From: Mariprofundus ferrinatatus
Lineage (GTDB): Bacteria > Pseudomonadota > Zetaproteobacteria > Mariprofundales > Mariprofundaceae
Direction of reading: 5' to 3'
Length of the DNA stretch: 64,000 nt
Assembly: GCF_002795825.1 (NCBI RefSeq)
Contig: NZ_CP018800.1
Coordinates: forward strand, 2,044,001-2,108,000
Shown here piece after piece: positions 21,370-61,899 of the stretch (the first letter of the stretch is position 1; the number at the start of each line of letters is the position of its first letter). The position numbers and the translations under genes were made by a program. Below the pieces are notes generated by a model. The model was not told the DNA's origin and searched no databases. It worked only from the letters and a program-made list of their open reading frames with translations.

Positions 21370-21421
21370 AGTCAAAAAACAAGGGAATCAATTTTGTTTG
21401 ACACCGGGGAGAGGAAATAGA

Positions 21422-23020
21422 ATGAAAGTGGCTGAAAAAGTATTTATGGGAAGTGAAAACCTCTCCTTAAAAATCAAGCTCAACGTAGCAGTTTCTATCA
21501 TATTCATGATCGTCATGGGGGTAGACAGAACCTACTCGCTGATCGAGGAAGATCATCGCGTCATCGCCATGACTGAAGAGAGCGTCGCCAAAGACTCCAA
21601 CAATTACTTCGACAGCCTTAACATGCTGATGCTTGCAGCAGACATGGATGAGCGCGATGTACTGCGTAAAAAGGTTCTGGACAGCGACAAGAACATTATT
21701 GAAGCACGTGTATTGCGTGGAGAAGCGGTGAAACAGCAGTACGGGCCGGGAAGCGCTGACGAACAGCCACGTGACGACCTGGATCGCAGCGCCCTGCAGG
21801 GTGAAGAGATCTCAGTCATTGAGGATGGTAAGAATGGCCGGGTCCTGACAGTCATCACGCCGTTTCGTGCGACCGAGAATACGCGCGGCGTCAACTGCCT
21901 TAGCTGCCACGATGTATCTTCCGGCAGTGTTAATGGTGCGGTTCGCATCTCCTACTCACTGCAGGAAATTGACAGTGAGCTGAACGAGGCCATGTGGATG
22001 GGCATTGGTATCAGCCTTGGGCTGCTGCTGCTGGGGCTTACCGGCCTGAATGTGATCTTGAACCATATCGTGGTCAACCCGGTCGTCAGCCTGAGCAACC
22101 GCCTGAAGGATATTGCCGAGGGCGAGGGCGACCTGACCCAGCGTGTTGAGGTCTCAGGCAATGATGAGATCGGGCGGCTCGGGGCATCATTCAACACCTT
22201 CACCGCCAAGATTCAGGAGACCATCAGCGCCATATCATCCAACTCCCACACCTTGAGTGGTGCCGCTGAAGAGCTGACATCGGTCAGCCAGCAGATGGGC
22301 GCCAATGCCGAGGAGACATCGGCGCAGGCAGGTGTAGTTGCAGGCGCCTCCGAGACGATCAGCAACAACGTACAGACCGTTGCCAGCGGCATCGAGGAGT
22401 TGAGCGCCACTACGCGTGAAATTGCCGGCAATGCCTCAGAGGCGGCCAAGGTTGCACTCTCTGCCGTAGAGACTGCCGATGCAGCCAATGCCACCGTCAG
22501 CAAGCTCAATGTGAGCAGCACCGAGATCGGTGAGATCATCAACGCCATCAACTCCATTGCGCAGCAGACAAAACTGCTGGCACTCAATGCCACCATTGAG
22601 GCGGCCCGTGCCGGCGAGGCAGGCAAAGGCTTCGCGGTGGTGGCCAACGAGGTGAAGGATCTGGCCATGGAGACTGGCAAGGCTTCCGACGATATCGCCA
22701 GGAAGATCGAGATCATCCAGTCGGATACCACAGAGGCTGTGGCGGCGATCAGCAAGATCAATGAGGTGATTGCGCAGATCAATGAGTTCCAGAGCACCAT
22801 TGCCAGTGCTGTGGAGGAGCAGAGTGCGACGGCCGGCGAGATATCCAGGAATGTCGCCGATGTGGCGCAAGGAAGCAGTGAGATCACCCAGAACATCGCT
22901 GGCGTGGCCGAGGCTGCACAGAGCACCTCAACGGGTGCCAACGACACCCTGCAGGCCTCTGCCGAGCTCTCCCGCATGGCAGCTGAACTGCAGCAGCATG
23001 TGGCCAAGTTCAAGTTTTAA
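21422..23020 (+). CDS. methyl-accepting chemotaxis protein with periplasmic c-type haem motif
   Basis: 532 residues from the ATG at 21422, which follows GAGAGGAAA; an in-frame upstream start at 21398 lacks such a site. Membrane helix about 18-35, periplasmic domain about 36-192 with CLSCH (Cys159, Cys162, His163) in VNCLSCHDV, second helix about 193-218, HAMP, then the MCP signalling domain with the hairpin tip around [22 protein letters not shown] single covalently bound haem is likely, as in the haem-PAS receptors of Geobacter. It probably senses redox state or a haem ligand. No C-terminal CheR-binding pentapeptide. The signalling part is nearly identical in DNA to the next receptor and to the one at 45256-46851. 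Confidence 0.93.
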
Positions 23021-23143: not shown

Positions 23144-25132
23144 ATGAAATTCGTCACAACTTTTATCGGCAATCTGGGGATCAATACAAAACTCAGCATG
23201 CTGCTCGGGTTACCGATGCTCGGCATACTGATTCTGGCTATCATGATGGCCAGCTCGAAATGGGATGAGGTAGAGCGCCTGCATCTGCTTGAGAGTTCAT
23301 CTATTCTGAATGTGAAAGTTGGCAACCTGATGCATGAGATGCAGAAGGAGCGCAGTGCCAGCGCAGGTTTTCTCGCTTCCAAGGGTGCCAAATTCAGTAC
23401 CATCTTACGCAGCCAGCGTACAGAGACCGACCGAGCCCTCAATGAACTCAGGGAGTACACAGAGATTCTCGATCATGCTGCCCTGACTGCTGATGGGGAT
23501 GCCGCGCTCAAGAGCTACATGAGTAATCTAGGAAACCTGAGCAGCAAACGCTCCCAGGTGGATGGCTTCCATATTACTGCAGAGGAACAGAGAGCGTGGT
23601 ATAAAAAGACCAACAGTGATGGATTACACCTGGTTGCCATGGCTGTGCAGTCCGCCTATGACCCTGACCTGACGATCAGCGCCGCCCTCTCCATGATGAG
23701 TGCCGGCTACCTCACCTTCCTCTCTCTGAAAGAGCTTGCGGCAAGTGAGAGGGATACCTTAATCTCAGTCTTTTCTGCTGATGTCATCGAACAGAAAGAG
23801 CATGATGAACTGGTTACCTTGATCGGCGAGCAGCACGTTTATGAGAAGCTGTTCACCGAAATTGGCGAAGTTGCCTTTGCTGAGACACTCCACAACAACA
23901 TGAGAGGGGCATCCGTCGCTGCTGCCGCCGCAGAGGTTGAGAAGCTTCATGAAATGGCACGCAGTAAGCACAGCCATTTTGGTGTGGATCCGGAACAGTG
24001 GTACCGGGTTATGAGCCAAAAGATCGCCGGCCTGTATGAGACGGAGTCATACATCGGCAAGGACCTTGTTGAGGAAGCGGAGGTGATGGCATCTGAATCA
24101 TCAGGGCAGCTATGGAGGATTGTCATCCTCGTTGCCTTCCTGATGGTCTTCAATCTTGTTCAGGGCGTGATTACGAGCAGGGGCATTATCCGCTCGCTCA
24201 GAGAGACCATGGATGTGCTGCACGCCATGGCTGACGGTGATTTAACCCGGCGTGTCAAAGAGAAGTCCAGGGATGAAGTCGGCCAGATGAATGAATACCT
24301 TGCCAATGCACTCGATGGTCTTCAGGCAACCATCGCTGCGATATCCAGCAACTCCCAGACCTTGAGCGGTGCCGCCGAAGAGCTGACATCGGTCAGTCAG
24401 CAGATGGGCGCCAATGCCGAGGAGACTTCGGCGCAGGCCGGTGTGGTTGCAGGCGCCTCCGAGACGATCAGCAACAACGTGCAGACCGTTGCCAGCGGCA
24501 TCGAGGAGTTGAGCGCCACTACGCGTGAAATTGCCGGCAATGCCTCAGAGGCGGCCAAGGTTGCACTCTCTGCCGTAGAGACTGCCGATGCAGCCAATGC
24601 CACCGTGAGCAAGCTCAATGTGAGCAGTACCGAGATCGGTGAGATCATCAACGCCATCAACTCCATTGCGCAGCAGACAAAACTGCTGGCCCTCAATGCC
24701 ACCATTGAGGCGGCCCGTGCCGGCGAGGCAGGCAAAGGCTTCGCGGTGGTAGCCAACGAGGTGAAGGATCTGGCCATGGAGACAGGCAAGGCTTCCGACG
24801 ATATCGCCAGGAAGATCGAGATCATCCAGTCGGACACCACAGAGGCTGTGGCGGCGATCAGCAAGATCAATGAGGTGATTGCGCAGATCAATGAGTTCCA
24901 GAGCACCATTGCCAGTGCTGTGGAGGAGCAGAGTGCGACGGCCGGCGAGATATCCAGGAATGTCGCCGATGTGGCGCAGGGAAGCAGTGAGATCACCCAG
25001 AACATCGCTGGCGTGGCCGAGGCTGCACAGAGTACTTCAACAGGTGCCAACGACACCCTGCAGGCCTCTGCCGAGCTCTCCCGCATGGCGGCTGAACTGC
25101 AGCAGCATGTGACCAGGTTTAAATTGGCATAA
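23144..25132 (+). CDS. methyl-accepting chemotaxis protein with NIT sensor domain
   Basis: 662 residues. First membrane helix about 17-38, long periplasmic region about 40-320 matching the NIT (nitrate/nitrite-sensing) type: [16 protein letters not shown] and the helical repeats after it, second helix about 325-345 ([17 protein letters not shown]), HAMP, then the same MCP signalling domain as the receptor before it. The ligand is not known; NIT domains are associated with nitrate and nitrite. The ATG at 23144 follows AAGGAAC. Confidence 0.9.
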
Positions 25133-31387: not shown

Positions 31388-33484
31388 ATGGATCAGAAAA
31401 TCACAGCACCCGTCTCTTCGCAAACAGCTTCAACAGCACTGCAGCCTGCCAGTGGTCTGGCCAAATCTGGCGGCAAAGGTGTTTTTGCCAAACTGATTGC
31501 ACTCATTGAAAGCAAATCCAATGCGGACCATGACGCCGGCACAGAAAAGCTGTTCAAGCCAGCGGCTAACACCAAGGAGATCACCGCTGATGCATCAGTA
31601 TCCGACAGCTCCGGTGTTCATTCGGCAGCTGCAGGAAAAGCGGTAGCAAAAAAGAACACCCCTGAGCAGAAAGAGTCTTCAGATCTTATTACAGCAGAAG
31701 CCGGTATTGAAATCCGAAACAGCAACAACGCTGAAACCAGGCTGATTGCTTCCAATCGCAACCTCGGGAGTGAAGTGGCCGAAGAAAAAGTTTCCGCCAC
31801 ACTCAAGATAGGTGACAAGCAGGCAGAAAAGATCGCCGACAAAACAGATACAACAGCGTGGTCAGCGGCCACTGGCACCACCGAAGCAAAAGCTTCCGCT
31901 CCAGCCAAGGCGGATATCAATCTGTCTGCGAAGGGCGGTGCCAAGGGTGATGCAGCAGAAGGCTCTGCAACCCGCCCTGCAGATATGGCAAAGGCTGCCG
32001 CGTCAGCGAAGGCGAACATGGAGCAGTCTGCAGCGAACAGCGCCAAGGTTGACGCAGCAGAAGGCTCTGCAACCCGCCCTGCAGATATGGCAAAGGCTGC
32101 CGCGTCAGCGAAGGCGAACATGGAGCAGTCTGCAGCGAACAGCGCCAAGGTTGACGCAGCGGATGCGTCTGCATCCCGCACTGCAGATGCGGCAAAGGCT
32201 GCCGCGTCAGCGAAGGCAAACATGGAGCAGTCTGCAGCGAACGGCGCCATGGGTGACGCAGCGGATGTGTCTGCAACCCGCACTGCAGATATGGCAAAGA
32301 CTGCCGCGTCAGCGAAGGCAAACATGGAGCAGTCTGCAGCGAACAGCGCCAAGGTTGACGCAGCGGATGTGTCTGCAACCCGCACTGCAGATATGGCAAA
32401 GGCGGCCGCGTCAGCGAAGGCGAACATGGAGCAGCCTGCAAAGATTGCAGTTCATTCAGAAACGGCAGCCACCCCTGCGACACATGGCGATGATACGGAT
32501 GAGGTTGCAGCCAGCAGCAAGGTGGAAGCAGCCCGGCCTGCCAGGAGCAGGACCAGGGGTGAAAGCGTGCATGTCGCAGCGACCCATGTCGAAGAGAGGC
32601 AAGCCGCCGCCACACCCGGAAGGAAGTCGAACCCGAGCGCTGCAACAAAAGCAGAGAAGCCTGCAAATGAGCCGCTCGTTGCGAGCACCAGGGCAGCGAT
32701 GCAGCAGATGAGCAACAGCATGCAGCCAGAAAAGGGCATGCCCGCTCAAACAGAAGCGATCGCTATGGCAAACCTGCCTGAGCAACAGCGCGCCTCTACA
32801 AACAGCTTTGTGAAGATTCGTAAAATCAACCTGGAACATGCGTCCAGAGCCAAAACATCGCCATCGCAGGCCAATGCCAGCCAGATCAGGCAGCCAGCCG
32901 TAGCGCCATCCGAATCCTTCACCACCAGCATGAAAGAAATTGTGGTTCAGGGTGAAGGCTTTTCCAGACCAGCCCATCACGCAATTGACACCGGCAACAG
33001 CCAGATGTTTCAGATTGGCGGCCAGGAAGCGACATCGTCATTGACGCGCTCTTTTTATCAGCCAAATCAACAGCTCATGGGCTCCACCCCTGTAACAGTT
33101 GCAGCAGCCATGCAGCAAGTTGGCCAAGCGGCAGGTCAGGGGAAATTCCAACTGGAACTGACACTGACTCCGGAGCACCTTGGCAAGGTACAGGTGTTCC
33201 TGGACAGCGATGTAAACAAGCAGATTCAGGTTCACTTTGTGGTTGAGCAATCCACATCCAGACAGTCCATAGAGCAGCACCTGCCCGCATTGCGTCAGGC
33301 TTTGGCCGATCAGGGACTCAATATGGACAGCTTTTCGATGGAGTCTTCCGAACAGCATCAAGATAACCGGCAAGCCGGACATAGACGAAACCCGGACCAC
33401 GGAACCATGACAGCCGGGCAGCCCGGAAGTAATGAAAACCGTCCTGAAGCAGCAGCAAATGGCCGCTTAAGTATTCGAATTTAG
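31388..33484 (+). CDS. fliK: flagellar hook-length control protein FliK with tandem 34-residue repeats
   Basis: 698 residues, long for FliK. Residues 188-355 are five tandem copies of an Ala-rich 34-residue unit (around ADMAKAAASAKANMEQSAAN). The C-terminal hook-length domain is at about 575-650 (FQLELTLTPEHLGKVQVFL, then VEQSTSRQSIEQHLPALRQAL). It acts as a ruler that ends hook growth and switches the export gate. It is followed by flgD and flgE. No ribosome binding site lies before the ATG. Confidence 0.88.
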   Translation: MDQKITAPVSSQTASTALQPASGLAKSGGKGVFAKLIALIESKSNADHDAGTEKLFKPAANTKEITADASVSDSSGVHSAAAGKAVAKKNTPEQKESSDLITAEAGIEIRNSNNAETRLIASNRNLGSEVAEEKVSATLKIGDKQAEKIADKTDTTAWSAATGTTEAKASAPAKADINLSAKGGAKGDAAEGSATRPADMAKAAASAKANMEQSAANSAKVDAAEGSATRPADMAKAAASAKANMEQSAANSAKVDAADASASRTADAAKAAASAKANMEQSAANGAMGDAADVSATRTADMAKTAASAKANMEQSAANSAKVDAADVSATRTADMAKAAASAKANMEQPAKIAVHSETAATPATHGDDTDEVAASSKVEAARPARSRTRGESVHVAATHVEERQAAATPGRKSNPSAATKAEKPANEPLVASTRAAMQQMSNSMQPEKGMPAQTEAIAMANLPEQQRASTNSFVKIRKINLEHASRAKTSPSQANASQIRQPAVAPSESFTTSMKEIVVQGEGFSRPAHHAIDTGNSQMFQIGGQEATSSLTRSFYQPNQQLMGSTPVTVAAAMQQVGQAAGQGKFQLELTLTPEHLGKVQVFLDSDVNKQIQVHFVVEQSTSRQSIEQHLPALRQALADQGLNMDSFSMESSEQHQDNRQAGHRRNPDHGTMTAGQPGSNENRPEAAANGRLSIRI
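31949..32458 (+). repeat. five tandem 102-bp repeats within fliK
   Basis: Units start at 31949, 32051, 32153, 32255 and 32357 and each encode 34 residues. The first two are almost identical; the fifth diverges after its MEQ. Exact multiples of three keep the frame. The pattern shows expansion by recombination or slippage inside the central ruler region. Confidence 0.9.
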
Positions 33485-35715: not shown

Positions 35716-36480
35716 ATGGATATCGCAACTATTATAGGCCTGGTCACTGCAATTGGCCTAGTTATTACAGCTATCCAGATGGGTGGTTCACTTGCATCGT
35801 TTGTCGATGTTGTGTCAATGCTGATCGTAGTTGGAGGTACCATAGGGGCCACACTGATCAACTACCCGCTAAAAGAGGTGATTGGAGCCGTTGCCGTCGG
35901 CCTGAAAACATTCATATCAAAAGTACATGATCCGAAGTCAACTATTGCTCAACTCATCGAGCTTTCCCAGGTCGTTCGCAAGGACGGGATTCTTGGCATG
36001 GAAGGGCAAGTTGACCAACTCGACAACGAGTTCATGAAAAAAGCCGTACAGATGACCATAGACGGGCAGGAGCCCCATGTGATTGATGACATCCTGTATG
36101 GTGAAACGGAAAAAATCTCTGACCGCCATGCTCTGGGCGCAGAAATATTTATGGCACTGGCCGGTTTTGCCCCGGCCTTCGGCATGATAGGCACACTGGT
36201 GGGGCTGGTTCTCATGCTGCAGAACATGGATGATCCATCAACCATTGGACCGTCCATGTCCGTGGCGCTGCTGACCACATTTTATGGCGCCCTGATGGCC
36301 AATATTCTTTTCCTCCCGATGGCTGGAAAACTGAAAACCCTGAGTAAAAAAGAGGTGCTGGTAAATGAGATTATCATGGCCGGCATCCAGTCGCTGGCTG
36401 CCGGAGAGAATCCGCGCATCATGGAACGACGCCTGATGGGCTTCTTATCTCCAAAAGATCGCACCTCCAGTTTCGACTAA
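35716..36480 (+). CDS. motA: flagellar stator protein MotA (first set)
   Basis: 254 residues with four membrane helices: two near the N-terminus (6-26, 33-50) and two after residue 145 (FMALAGFAPAFGMIGTLVGLVLML and MSVALLTTFYGALMANILFLPMA). The cytoplasmic loop carries the charged residues that act on FliG. It is followed by two motB-like genes, fliL and fliM. Confidence 0.93.
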   Translation: MDIATIIGLVTAIGLVITAIQMGGSLASFVDVVSMLIVVGGTIGATLINYPLKEVIGAVAVGLKTFISKVHDPKSTIAQLIELSQVVRKDGILGMEGQVDQLDNEFMKKAVQMTIDGQEPHVIDDILYGETEKISDRHALGAEIFMALAGFAPAFGMIGTLVGLVLMLQNMDDPSTIGPSMSVALLTTFYGALMANILFLPMAGKLKTLSKKEVLVNEIIMAGIQSLAAGENPRIMERRLMGFLSPKDRTSSFD

Positions 36481-36486
36481 TAGACC

Positions 36487-37263
36487 ATGGCCCGCAAAAG
36501 CAAAAAAGAGAGTGAGGATCCGAAGAGCAATTTCGATATGCTCTTTCTGCAATTGATGATGATTATGATGGCCTTCTTCATCCTGCTCTCGGCTCTGTCG
36601 GTCATTATTGATGAGAAGAGGCTGAAAGCCCTGAACTCTATTGCAGGGGCCTTTAATCTCATGCCGGCTGGTGCCAACCTGAGCCAGAAACATGATGCCT
36701 CCATGCCAAGCAGGGAGCTGGGTGCCAATAATACCGCCACCAAAAGAACCGCCAAAAAACTGACGAATGTCGCCAAACTGTTGGGGGCTGGTGACGCTGT
36801 TCACGTTCTTCCTCTTGATAAGAGCACTGTCAGGGTTCGCATGCAGGAGCAGATTCTTTTCAAACCGGGGCAAATCAGACTGACCGAAAGCAGCCGCACG
36901 TTTATCGCTGCGATGGCGAAGGTACTCATACAGCCAGAAATACAGGACATCACGATTGAGGGACACACGGACAAGACACCGTTAAGGGGCAAAGGCGCCA
37001 TGGGCAACTGGGAGCTCTCTGCAGCCAGAGCGATGCAGGTCTTCCATGAACTGGCGAACTACAATCTCTCCAAGAGCAAGTTGTTTGTTGCAGGAATGGG
37101 GGACGCCAGACCGCTGCCTCACTCCGAAACAGACGGCAATGAAGCCCTTAACCGGCGTGTAGAGCTGATCATTCGCTTCCGCCCCACCACCACCCAGGAA
37201 TCGCGGCCAGTCGCGCTTGAGAGCAGCTCACCTGCGGCAGAAGTTCCACCCGGGGAGCATTGA
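36487..37263 (+). CDS. MotB-like protein with Gln in place of the ion-binding Asp
   Basis: 258 residues: one membrane helix (about 19-38, LFLQLMMIMMAFFILLSAL) and a C-terminal OmpA/MotB peptidoglycan-binding domain (about 120-240, ITIEGHTDKTPL and NRRVELIIRF). Aligning the helix on its MAFF motif with MotB (ADFMTLLLAFF), the essential Asp is Gln22; Asp17 is five residues out of register. It is encoded between motA and a normal motB, so it may form a mixed dimer with it. It is complete, so not a pseudogene. Confidence 0.85.
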   Translation: MARKSKKESEDPKSNFDMLFLQLMMIMMAFFILLSALSVIIDEKRLKALNSIAGAFNLMPAGANLSQKHDASMPSRELGANNTATKRTAKKLTNVAKLLGAGDAVHVLPLDKSTVRVRMQEQILFKPGQIRLTESSRTFIAAMAKVLIQPEIQDITIEGHTDKTPLRGKGAMGNWELSAARAMQVFHELANYNLSKSKLFVAGMGDARPLPHSETDGNEALNRRVELIIRFRPTTTQESRPVALESSSPAAEVPPGEH

Positions 37264-37267
37264 CCAG

Positions 37268-38008
37268 ATGGCGCGCAAAAGGGAAAAGAAGAAGCCAGAG
37301 AAGGTTGATACCGAAGGCTGGGTAATGACCTTTGGGGACCTGATCAGCCTCATGCTCACCTTCTTTGTTCTCATCGTATCCATGTCCACCATGGATGATT
37401 TAACACTTAAAGAGATCAGCGATCAGGCGGCTGTTGGCGCATCCGTATTCGATCAGGGAAGCAGTACCGATCTGGACATCGTTCCAGCGGTCGACATAGA
37501 CAAGAAAGTAAGCATGCAGGAGATGATGCTGGCAGCCCGCCAGAAGGCGAACCGGATGCTCTCCAACAGCGTATGGAAGAGCAAGGTTAGTGCACGCATA
37601 GTCAAGGACAAGTTCATGTTCAGTCTGCCCAGTTCAGTCCTGTTCAGCGAAGGCGGCGCCAGCCTGAAAGAAGAGGATATTGTCATGCTGCGACGACTTG
37701 CACGGCTGCTTGCCTCCACCCCGGGACATATTCGCGTTGAGGGGCACACCAGTTCTGACGCCATCCCTTCCGGAAGCATTTATCCGGATGCATGGAGCCT
37801 CTCTCTGGCGCGGGCGGCATCAGTCTTGCATGTGCTTGAAGCAGAAGGTGTTAGCCACACCAGACTGTCACTTGTTGGATATGGCCCATCGAAGCCGGTT
37901 TCCGTACTTAACAGTGTGTTCAGTCGAGCTAAAAACCGGCGTGTCGACATTGTACTTTACGAACCGCCGGCCAAGAAGCACCAAAAAAACCGGAAGAGTG
38001 ATTGGTAA
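37268..38008 (+). CDS. motB: flagellar stator protein MotB (first set)
   Basis: 246 residues from the ATG at 37268, four bases after the previous stop; an in-frame ATG at 37217 would overlap the upstream gene. Helix WVMTFGDLISLMLTFFVLIVSM carries the ion-binding Asp in register with the FF motif. C-terminal OmpA domain contains IRVEGHTSSDAI and KNRRVDIVL. It anchors the stator to peptidoglycan and conducts the driving ion with MotA. Confidence 0.9.
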   Translation: MARKREKKKPEKVDTEGWVMTFGDLISLMLTFFVLIVSMSTMDDLTLKEISDQAAVGASVFDQGSSTDLDIVPAVDIDKKVSMQEMMLAARQKANRMLSNSVWKSKVSARIVKDKFMFSLPSSVLFSEGGASLKEEDIVMLRRLARLLASTPGHIRVEGHTSSDAIPSGSIYPDAWSLSLARAASVLHVLEAEGVSHTRLSLVGYGPSKPVSVLNSVFSRAKNRRVDIVLYEPPAKKHQKNRKSDW

Positions 38009-38041: not shown

Positions 38042-38560
38042 ATGGCGGATAAAGAAATGGAGAAAGATGACAGCCAGCCCCAGAAAGAGAAGAAAAAGTC
38101 ATCTATCTCGCTTGTTCAGATCATCATCATCGTCCTTTTGCTTGCTGTACTGGGGGTCGGCGGCTTCATTGCCTGGAAACTGGTGAATCTGGAGATTCCC
38201 GTTGCCCAGAATGCGCAACAGCCCGCTGAAGAAGAGGCGCCAAATACAGGACCCGGCATCATGGTCGAGATGGACAATATTACAGTCAATATCTATGGCG
38301 ATGATCAGGACCGCTTCCTGCGCGGAAAAATCATACTGGAAGTGGCAGATGAGGAAGCCAGGATGAAGATTGAGCAATACAAGGTCAGGATCAGAGATAC
38401 TGTTCTCGGTACACTCTCCAGCAAGAGATATGAAGATCTCCGCAGTGAGCGTGGGCAGGGGGTATATGAACTCAAGGAAGAACTGGCATATCGCATCAAC
38501 TTGATTGTGGGCGAGGAAGCAGTAAAACACATCTACTTCAATGATTTGATTGCCCAATGA
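38042..38560 (+). CDS. fliL: flagellar basal body protein FliL
   Basis: 172 residues: a charged N-terminal stretch, one membrane helix (about 25-45, IIIIVLLLAVLGVGGFIAWKL) and a periplasmic FliL domain (FLRGKIILEVADEEA to VKHIYFNDLI). It supports stators around the motor. Its end overlaps fliM by 4 bases. Confidence 0.92.
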   Translation: MADKEMEKDDSQPQKEKKKSSISLVQIIIIVLLLAVLGVGGFIAWKLVNLEIPVAQNAQQPAEEEAPNTGPGIMVEMDNITVNIYGDDQDRFLRGKIILEVADEEARMKIEQYKVRIRDTVLGTLSSKRYEDLRSERGQGVYELKEELAYRINLIVGEEAVKHIYFNDLIAQ

Positions 38561-39561
38561 ACGAGCCGGTTCTTAACAAAAGCGAGATTCAGGCACTTCT
38601 GGGTGCTATCGGACCAGATGAGGAGGCGAGTGCGCTTATAGCCAGCTTCCCTGAGATGCCTCAGCCCGAGAACGTTGACAGCTTTGAGTTCCGCGAAGAA
38701 GAGAAGAGCGGACTCAATGACTACCCCAGGTTTTCCCAGATGCATGACAGGTTCACTGAGGCACTGCTGGCAAGCTGGAGAATGAATTTCACCAACGCCA
38801 TTGCGGTCTTTTTCAAGGAGACTACCGAGAGCAGTTATTTTGAAGTGCTGGACAGTGATGAGCCCCGTGTCTATTTCACCATGGAGTCTCCCGGAGCTGG
38901 CAGCATGCTTGTCGTGCTTGATAAGGCCCTGGTTGTCTCCTATATCGATGCCCTGCTCTCCGGAAGCGGAGAAGTGATTCCGGATGAAGAGACCGCGTTG
39001 ACGCCGCTGGAGCTTAAACTGGCTGGAAGAATCGCCTCCACAACAGCCTCCATGCTGGCGGATCTGTGGAGCCCTATCATTAAACTGGATTTCGAGCTTA
39101 AACAGATCGACCTGGACCCAATGAATCTGCTCATGACCGCCGAAGATGAGTTATGCTTTACGGTCACCAATGTAATCGTACTTGGCGAAGCAGTGCGCGG
39201 CGAGATATCTCTCTGCTATCCATTCTCATTTCTTGAGCCCATGCTGATCACCATGCGTTCTCAGGCACGCGAACAAACGGCCAGTATTGACGAAGAGTGG
39301 ATCAGCCAATTGAAAAGCAGCATTCTCAGTTCACCGATTGAATTAAGGCTTGAACTTGGGCGCTGTACGATTCGGATACAGGACTTTTTGAATTATAAAA
39401 CCGGTGATTTTCTCCCCTTAAAAATTCCGGAGCGAGAGCCCGCCAAGCTGTGGATTGATAAATATCCATCGTTCCTCGCCAACCCCGGACAGCAGGATGG
39501 GATGCTTGCCGCCGAAGTGTTAAACACGATTAAACTTGAACCGGAGAAAGATTATGACTGA
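38557..39561 (+). CDS. fliM: flagellar motor switch protein FliM
   Basis: 334 residues. The N-terminal CheY-binding helix is LNKSEIQALL, the middle CheC-like domain is about 55-235, and the C-terminal FliN-like domain is about 260-330 (SSPIELRLELGRCTIRIQDF). It receives CheY-P and sets rotation direction. Overlaps fliN by 8 bases. Confidence 0.94.
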   Translation: MNEPVLNKSEIQALLGAIGPDEEASALIASFPEMPQPENVDSFEFREEEKSGLNDYPRFSQMHDRFTEALLASWRMNFTNAIAVFFKETTESSYFEVLDSDEPRVYFTMESPGAGSMLVVLDKALVVSYIDALLSGSGEVIPDEETALTPLELKLAGRIASTTASMLADLWSPIIKLDFELKQIDLDPMNLLMTAEDELCFTVTNVIVLGEAVRGEISLCYPFSFLEPMLITMRSQAREQTASIDEEWISQLKSSILSSPIELRLELGRCTIRIQDFLNYKTGDFLPLKIPEREPAKLWIDKYPSFLANPGQQDGMLAAEVLNTIKLEPEKDYD

Positions 39562-39883
39562 CAAAGCTAAAGAGGTTGAACAGCAGAGCAGTGAAAACCA
39601 GATTGCAGCTAAAGAGCACAGCCCATCCAACCTGGAATCACTCATGCACATTCCACTGGAGGTAAGCGTAGAACTGGGCCGGGTCAAGCTGCCGCTGCAT
39701 TCGGTTGTACGCATAGCCCGAGGCACAGTCCTCCAGATGGGTAAGGAGGCCGACTCACAGGTGGATATCATGGCCAACGGAAGCATTTTTGCGCGTGGCG
39801 AGGTCGTCAAGGCAAACGGTAAACTCGGGGTACGCATTACCAATATCGTCACGCCAGAAGAGCGTGTTCGCGCACTCTCATGA
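39554..39883 (+). CDS. fliN: flagellar motor switch protein FliN
   Basis: 109 residues from the ATG at 39554, which follows GGAGAAAG; a longer in-frame start at 39536 sits further inside fliM. SpoA domain IPLEVSVELGRVKLPLHSVVRIARG-type, then DIMANGSIFARGEVV and VRITNIVTPEERV. C-ring subunit. Confidence 0.93.
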   Translation: MTDKAKEVEQQSSENQIAAKEHSPSNLESLMHIPLEVSVELGRVKLPLHSVVRIARGTVLQMGKEADSQVDIMANGSIFARGEVVKANGKLGVRITNIVTPEERVRALS

Positions 39884-60292: not shown

Positions 60293-61141
60293 ATGGATTT
60301 CTCAACCATTGCCGGTATTCTGGCAGGATTCGGGCTGATCGTGCTCTCCATATTCCTCTCAGCCGTGGAACCGGGAATATACGTCAATCTGACTGGTTTG
60401 ATTATTGTTATCGGCGGCACCATGGCCGCCACGCTGGTCAGCTATCCAACCCACGAACTGAGGAAAATCAGCAAAGCGCTGGCCAATGTTTTCCATCGCA
60501 CCGAATACTCTATCCGTGATGACATTTACGAGATCGCCCAGGCCGCCCGCTTTCGCAGGCATGGAAATCTGGCCGGCATAGAAGAGCGCCTCGCAAAAAT
60601 CGAAAACCCTTTTTTGCGTACCTCCATCCAGCTGGTGGTTGATAACACGCCTGCCGATGAGATTGTGAACATGCTGCAATGGCGGATTAAACGTTTAAGA
60701 GAGAAGGAGCGGGCTGAGGCGCAGGTGTTTCACACCATGGCCGCCTATGCGCCCGCCTTTGGCATGTTCGGCACACTCGTAGGCATGGTCAACATGCTCT
60801 ATGGCGTGAATGGTCCCGACTCATTGAATATGGGACACAATATGGCTGTGGCACTGATGACAACACTCTACGGCGTACTGTTGGCCAATCTGATTTTTAA
60901 ACCCGTAGCAATCAAGCTTGAACGGCGAACAGAGAAACGCACCATGATCATGCGCATGATTGTCGAGGGTGCCATCATGCTCGCAAGTGACCGAGGCCCG
61001 ATATTTATCCGGGAAACACTGAAATCATTTTCAGCCCAATATGAGGATGAACTACGCGGCAGCAGCCACTCATCCGAAGATGAGCTTCGCGCATCAACCG
61101 GAAAACGTTCGCTTCGCGCCAGTCCGGATGACAACTTCTAA
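60293..61141 (+). CDS. motA: flagellar stator protein MotA (second set)
   Basis: 282 residues with the same plan as the first MotA: N-terminal helices (9-28, 35-52) and the pair after 150 (MAAYAPAFGMFGTLVGMVNML and MAVALMTTLYGVLLANLIFKPV). A longer C-terminal tail rich in Ser and acidic residues (about 245-282) is specific to this copy. It shares one base with motB (TAATG). Confidence 0.92.
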   Translation: MDFSTIAGILAGFGLIVLSIFLSAVEPGIYVNLTGLIIVIGGTMAATLVSYPTHELRKISKALANVFHRTEYSIRDDIYEIAQAARFRRHGNLAGIEERLAKIENPFLRTSIQLVVDNTPADEIVNMLQWRIKRLREKERAEAQVFHTMAAYAPAFGMFGTLVGMVNMLYGVNGPDSLNMGHNMAVALMTTLYGVLLANLIFKPVAIKLERRTEKRTMIMRMIVEGAIMLASDRGPIFIRETLKSFSAQYEDELRGSSHSSEDELRASTGKRSLRASPDDNF

Positions 61142-61899
61142 TGCAAGAGATACTGAACAAGGAACAGCCAGGTGATAGCCCTGCAGGCCTTTCACTGCTT
61201 CGAACCCACGCCCTGGATGAGCCGGAGCCAATCGATGACTCACCTGAGATAACGCAAGACACATGGATGGTCTCCTATCTGGATCTGGTCACCCTGCTGT
61301 TGAGCCTATTCATTGTAATGGGGACACTCAATGCACCAAAAGCGGGCATTCAGGTGCAGGAGACCTCTAACGGCATGAATGCCAAGAATCAGGAAACGCC
61401 TGTAAGCATGGATGCCACCATCAAACGACAGGGCCAGAAGCAGGGGCTGGAGGAGGAGCTCAACCGTATCATCGGCAGCAACTCACTGGGCGGCGTCATG
61501 GACGTCAAGGTATCCCCCGGCCAGATTCGCCTGCAGATGCACGCCAGCATGCTTTTTGGAGCAGGCGAGGCCAATCTCAACGACTCGGCAGGCACCCCGT
61601 TAAAGGATCTCGCAAGACTGTTACAGGGCTATCCGGGCAGGGTCGAAGTCGCAGGCCATAGTGACAATATTCCGGTCTCCGGAGGGCGCTACCGCTCGAA
61701 CTGGGAACTCTCATCGGCACGTGCCGCCTCCGTAGTTGAATCCCTTATAGAGATCGGCATTCCTGCCAGCAGATTACACGCGACTGGTTATGCCGACACG
61801 CGCCCTATCACCACCAATGCCACCCCCGAGGGCAGGGCAAAGAACCGCCGCGTTGAGTTTATCGTTGAAATGGGACCGGAGTTGATCCACAAACGCTGA
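61141..61899 (+). CDS. motB: flagellar stator protein MotB (second set)
   Basis: 252 residues. The membrane helix WMVSYLDLVTLLLSLFIVM has the ion-binding Asp in register. The OmpA/MotB domain contains VEVAGHSDNIPVSGGRYRSNWELSSARA and KNRRVEFIVEM. With the first stator, this genome can build at least two stators. Confidence 0.92.
   Translation: MQEILNKEQPGDSPAGLSLLRTHALDEPEPIDDSPEITQDTWMVSYLDLVTLLLSLFIVMGTLNAPKAGIQVQETSNGMNAKNQETPVSMDATIKRQGQKQGLEEELNRIIGSNSLGGVMDVKVSPGQIRLQMHASMLFGAGEANLNDSAGTPLKDLARLLQGYPGRVEVAGHSDNIPVSGGRYRSNWELSSARAASVVESLIEIGIPASRLHATGYADTRPITTNATPEGRAKNRRVEFIVEMGPELIHKR

Follow-up and report, generated by a model that had tools for sequence, protein, structure and literature searches.

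The window, by which we mean the whole stretch of 64,000 bases that was analysed, comes from the 2.30 Mb, single-contig genome of Mariprofundus ferrinatatus (class Zetaproteobacteria). It holds a flagellar locus in which flgE-like genes are followed by motA, by two motB-like genes that we call motB1 and motB2, and then by fliL, fliM and fliN. The features referred to below are these, with positions counted from the first base of the window:

35716 to 36480, plus strand: motA, 254 aa, PomA-like; T160, T187 and T188 correspond to the conserved PomA residues T158, T185 and T186
36487 to 37263, plus strand: motB1, 258 aa, MotB-type transmembrane (TM)/plug region and OmpA-like domain, ion site without Asp
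36535 to 36537, plus strand: codon GAT for MotB1 Asp17, five residues ahead of the ion site, found in 5/55 orthologues
36550 to 36552, plus strand: codon CAA for MotB1 Gln22, in the ion-site column (Glu in 51/55 and Gln in 4/55 orthologues)
36958 to 37029, plus strand: MotB1 peptidoglycan-binding motif EGHTD...NWELSAAR, complete (D162, N174, R181)
37268 to 38008, plus strand: motB2, 246 aa, ATG start, MotB-type with ion-site Asp
37337 to 37339, plus strand: codon GAC for MotB2 Asp24, aligned to PomB D24 (Asp in 55/55 orthologues)
37739 to 37813, plus strand: MotB2 eroded peptidoglycan motif EGHTS...DAWSLSLAR, with the Asp of HTD and the Asn lost and the Arg kept
38042 to 39883, plus strand: fliL, fliM and fliN, with FliM and FliN recognised by PF01052 and fliL named from position and sequence only
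60293 to 61899, plus strand: a second stator set, motA2-motB3, with Asp in MotB3 (SYLD)

Both motB-like open reading frames are full-length and stand behind a single motA, as an earlier reading of the sequence alone had described, with 6 bases between motA and motB1 and 4 bases between motB1 and motB2. For motB2 the ATG at 37268 was preferred because it agrees with the starts of homologues, which makes the TTG at 37217 the less likely start. Both proteins exceed the curated Pfam cut-offs for the two domains expected of a MotB, MotB1 with 25.3 bits for MotB_plug (PF13677; cut-off 24) and 62.9 bits for OmpA (PF00691), and MotB2 with 52.6 and 52.7 bits, respectively.

Two further features of the window lie upstream. 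A 102-base tandem repeat (31940 to 32440; 4.9 copies, 93% match) sits inside a long open reading frame (31388 to 33484) at a FliK-like position. Two adjacent chemotaxis receptor-like open reading frames (21398 to 23020 and 23144 to 25132) are 96.4% identical over 800 bases in their 3' parts and unalignable in the remainder, a pattern that points to recent gene conversion or duplication.

The ion-site residue was assigned by alignment to PomB, in which D24 faces Gln22 of MotB1 and Asp24 of MotB2, and by an alignment that combined both proteins with 57 control MotBs, in which the Glu/Gln column of MotB1 is the all-Asp column of the MotB2s and the controls. Among 55 orthologues of MotB1 the residue is Glu in 51, Gln in four (genomes G000, which holds the window, G011, G026 and G029) and Asp in none. 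MotB2 carries Asp in 55/55 orthologues, and the controls, which include tandem pairs, do so in 57/57. These controls came from MotB_plug loci of other Pseudomonadota (the 30 with the highest scores plus 20 picked by hand, mostly of lower score), and 56 of the Asp calls were read by pattern, with one (L107, FGDL) read by eye and alignment. The contrast between 0/55 and 57/57 gives a Fisher p of ~3e-33, a value that is overstated as it ignores the relatedness of the sequences. The sequence-only reading was therefore right that the first protein lacks the ion-binding Asp and that the second has it. It was also right that Gln22 is real, and we found that Asp never occurs there in MotB1. The Gln that it singled out is nevertheless a minority state, Glu being the rule, and Gln as a class-wide trait of MotB1 was ruled out.

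The residue that might compete with Gln22 is Asp17, since in the Gln lineage it could in principle stand in for the ion-site residue, with MotB1 carrying ions from a shifted position. All four Gln-type sequences do contain Asp17. However, Asp17 occurs in no more than 5/55 orthologues, the helix aligns without gaps, no alignment gap brings Asp17 to the site, and a distance of five helix residues places it ~140 degrees off the site by geometry. Moreover, one of the five orthologues with Asp17 (from G061) has Glu at the ion site, which does not fit a simple replacement. Asp17 was thus ruled out as the aligned ion site of MotB1, and with it a result that the sequence-only reading had named as one that would refute its case; ion transport from a shifted Asp17 appears very improbable.

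To place the pair in its class, 78 genomes of Zetaproteobacteria (this genome and 77 others) were surveyed. Of these, 54 have a MotB1, 55 a MotB2 and 53 FliM/FliN, and all three are absent from 22. The exceptions are few and include a match at a contig edge and incomplete assemblies: MotB2 occurs without MotB1 in one genome (G081, the contig-edge match), FliM/FliN without MotB1 in G069 and G081, and MotB1 without FliM/FliN in G061, G070 and G032. MotB1 and MotB2 therefore occur as a pair, and essentially only where FliM and FliN exist. The order motA-motB1-motB2 holds in 53/56 loci, that is, in all that could be read far enough, with the remainder ending at contig ends; in most loci the motB1 stop and the motB2 start overlap by one base. 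As the same arrangement recurs in more than 50 genomes, an assembly quirk was ruled out. Matches to MotB1 above 300 bits all fall within Zetaproteobacteria, and none outside the class exceeds 98 bits in a draw of 398 Pseudomonadota genomes; among the Pseudomonadota searched, a tandem motB whose first copy lacks Asp was seen only in Zetaproteobacteria.

MotB1 evolves under purifying selection. Between G000 and G011, dN/dS is 0.080 for MotB1, 0.083 for MotB2 and 0.059 for MotA (for a more distant genome pair the values for MotB1 and MotB2 were saturated), and this ratio of 0.08 together with the full length of the gene rules out a pseudogene or decaying copy. Conservation is concentrated in the TM helix, where mean entropy is 0.25 bits in MotB1 and 0.21 bits in MotB2, versus 1.23 and 1.08 bits in the periplasmic parts. 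Helix positions L19, F20, L21, L23 to M25, M27 and A29 to I32 of MotB1 are invariant, and such tight conservation is expected of a helix packed in a MotA ring. The predicted structure of MotB1 (three-sequence alignment, mean pLDDT 64.9, of which only the overall fold was used) shows a single long helix at the N-terminus together with an OmpA-like domain that matches the periplasmic structures of MotB and PomB, so the modelled fold is MotB-like. A recent duplication as the source of the pair is not supported, as MotB1 and MotB2 each form one clade and their mutual placement is a fork that the tree leaves open.

The two proteins also differ in their peptidoglycan motif, whose Asp and Arg have counterparts in OmpA that bind diaminopimelate (PMC6572160). 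The Asp, Asn and Arg are retained in essentially all 56 MotB1 sequences, whereas MotB2 keeps the Arg in 54/54, the Asp of HTD in 28/54 (it is lost in this genome) and the Asn of NWELS in 0/54. A complete motif in MotB1 beside an eroded one in MotB2 fits a division of labour, though a strict division is weakened as an argument since the Asp of HTD is likewise missing from 19/57 control MotBs. The same pattern, taken together with an ion site without Asp, could also mean that MotB1 is a membrane-tethered periplasmic scaffold and not a ring subunit, fixing MotA-MotB2 stators to the cell wall in a role like that of accessory stator scaffold proteins. Yet a plain anchor would need no nearly invariant helix with the TM pattern of a MotB, and MotB2 itself retains the motif Arg and, in half of the species, the Asp, so we regard such a scaffold as improbable. 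Separately, several other Pseudomonadota MotB-like proteins (loci L117 and L123 to L134) combine a cysteine-bearing N-terminus of the form KCPxCKKG and an ion-site Asp with the absence of much of the peptidoglycan motif.

The four Gln-type genomes share a set of further residues: Asp17, Gln22 and Ile26 in MotB1, Gly in place of Ala directly before Asp24 in MotB2, and a two-residue insertion in MotA. G061 has Asp17 and the MotA insertion, yet Glu at the MotB1 ion site. In a tree of the three proteins, built after removal of the MotA insertion and of the MotB1 columns that hold the traits, Gln versus Glu is one change with a support of 97. The deepest Gln row, G029, is long-branched and uncertainly placed. 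As these linked changes all trace to a single branch of the operon tree they count as one event, and the Gln of MotB1 is a state, either derived or alternative, that belongs to one operon lineage. This lineage does not follow the species. The Gln genomes lie apart from one another in a tree of RecA, with G026 beside G093 and G011 beside G001, and the FliM of G000 (38557 to 39561 of the window) is 87% identical to that of G011 and 57% identical to that of G026, which belongs to another genus, versus 39% to those of most of its own genus, Glu-type members among them. This mismatch makes it probable that the flagellar locus of Gln type has passed between species of Zetaproteobacteria, while ancient duplication followed by loss may be an alternative history.

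Whether the tandem genes are the working stator of the flagellum depends on what else a genome encodes. Here a second and complete stator is encoded by motA2-motB3, 22 kb downstream of the motB pair; it is also present in G011, and G000 and G011 were the only genomes with a second MotA among 11 checked. In other genomes, among them the Gln-type G026 and G029, in which motA2-motB3 was not detected, and the Glu-type G030, G074 and G024, a single MotA was detectable. The MotB_plug matches of these single-MotA genomes, whose assemblies are 93–100% complete, are MotB1 and MotB2 only, above the cut-off or nearly so, apart from one extra sub-threshold match in G026. With one detectable MotA each, MotA-MotB1-MotB2 is probably the sole flagellar stator of G026 and G029, and the matches point the same way for the other single-MotA genomes. 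As for the ion, MotA is closest to PomA and keeps the residues aligned with T158, T185 and T186, which suggests Na+ as the coupling ion.

The effect of the ion-site residue can be gauged from tested mutants. With Glu at the MotB site, Salmonella (PMC4030992) and Borrelia (PMC6663468) still move, though slowly; Asn abolishes motility in E. coli and Borrelia (PMC4030992, PMC6663468). For Gln we found no test in these Salmonella, Borrelia and E. coli studies; the nearest tested mutant, Asp to Asn, was non-motile (PMC6663468). A MotB1 homodimer in the Gln lineage would have none of the usual carboxylates.

We infer that MotB1 and MotB2 form a mixed dimer in one MotA ring, a best explanation to which we give a probability of roughly one in two. 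Under this explanation the two proteins would be obligate, co-adapted B subunits for one PomA-like MotA and would make up the main flagellar stator of Zetaproteobacteria. One MotB1-MotB2 dimer would sit within one MotA pentamer, with the ion-carrying Asp coming from MotB2, and with MotB1 in the second B position (Glu in most species, Gln in this operon lineage) as the anchoring partner that contributes the complete peptidoglycan-binding domain. The explanation is favoured by the constant gene order, by the co-occurrence of the pair with FliM/FliN, by the genomes with a single MotA, by purifying selection, TM conservation, the joint residue changes and the MotB-like fold of MotB1, and by the lack of a usual carboxylate in a Gln/Gln homodimer. 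Counting against it are the second complete stator in this genome, the one-branch co-variation of the Gln-lineage residues, and the alternation between the two essential Asp residues of a B homodimer by which stator models of MotAB and ExbBD hypothesise that the channel opens (PMC12215075) and which a one-Asp stator would break. The more exact version, a natural heterodimeric stator MotA5-MotB1-MotB2 with one Asp-bearing B subunit and, in the Gln lineage, a single ion site, is tentative. In that lineage, only one of the two ion sites would hold a standard carboxylate. The single ion path proposed by the sequence-only reading could therefore apply to the Gln lineage, and does not extend to the other species, as most orthologues carry Glu, a residue that can be protonated and works in part in Salmonella and Borrelia MotB (PMC4030992, PMC6663468). 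The mixed dimer and the structural anchor that the same reading suggested are at this stage hypotheses.

The tandem genes by themselves are no proof of a mixed dimer, because each Aquifex MotB works singly as a chimera in E. coli (PMC4525482). Alternatively, MotB1 and MotB2 could each pair with itself, so that one MotA would serve two stator populations. One would be a standard stator with Asp; the other, with Glu, would differ from it in speed, load or ion behaviour, and in the Gln lineage this MotB1 stator would be a non-conducting anchor or brake. The completeness of the plug/TM region and peptidoglycan domain of MotB1 and the function of Glu at reduced speed in Salmonella and Borrelia are in line with this, as is the Aquifex system, where one MotA serves two MotBs. 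Nevertheless, MotB1 and MotB2 are essentially always together, and MotB1 stays under strong purifying selection in the Gln lineage even though a homodimer with Gln ought to be non-conducting; separate homodimers thus seem rather unlikely, while ranking next after the mixed dimer.

The above analyses show that flagellated Zetaproteobacteria encode a pair of B subunits with at most one Asp, and that one lineage has swapped the other carboxylate for Gln. If the subunits share a ring, as in the mixed dimer, the flagellar motor would have B paralogues with specialised roles, and the pair would be a natural test of whether one ion site suffices; if it does, rotation would not depend on two Asp residues taking turns. 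We found no description of the two-MotB arrangement of Zetaproteobacteria and no paper joining Mariprofundus with motB in the open-access literature (most subscription papers lay outside this scope), and none of a MotB heterodimer among open-access titles and abstracts.

Tandem motB genes as such are not unusual, as three Pseudomonadota loci (L115, L116 and L117) have adjacent MotB genes with a MotA in the locus; unlike here, both of their copies carry Asp and their TMs are nearly the same. The Vibrio PomA/PomB Na+ stator (PDB 8bri, 8brd) offers the closest MotA, and the Asp24 of MotB2 corresponds to PomB D24, but PomB is one gene product acting as a homodimer, whereas the Zetaproteobacterial locus always encodes a second, Asp-free B subunit. 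Myxococcus AglR/AglQ/AglS (PMC9120999) likewise combines one MotA homologue with two MotB homologues, and a mixed two-subunit mechanism was suggested there; it is a gliding and not a flagellar motor, and the likeness is one of gene set and not of AglQ/AglS sequences. The precedent cited by the sequence-only reading, Aquifex aeolicus (PMC4525482), is a valid one, with an operon of one motA followed by two motB genes whose products differ strongly in their periplasmic parts, as they do here. However, the two Aquifex MotBs share 97% identity in their N-terminal and TM regions, and chimeras of either one function with MotA, whereas the TMs of the Zetaproteobacterial pair clearly differ (Gln22 versus Asp24) and the first copy never carries Asp.
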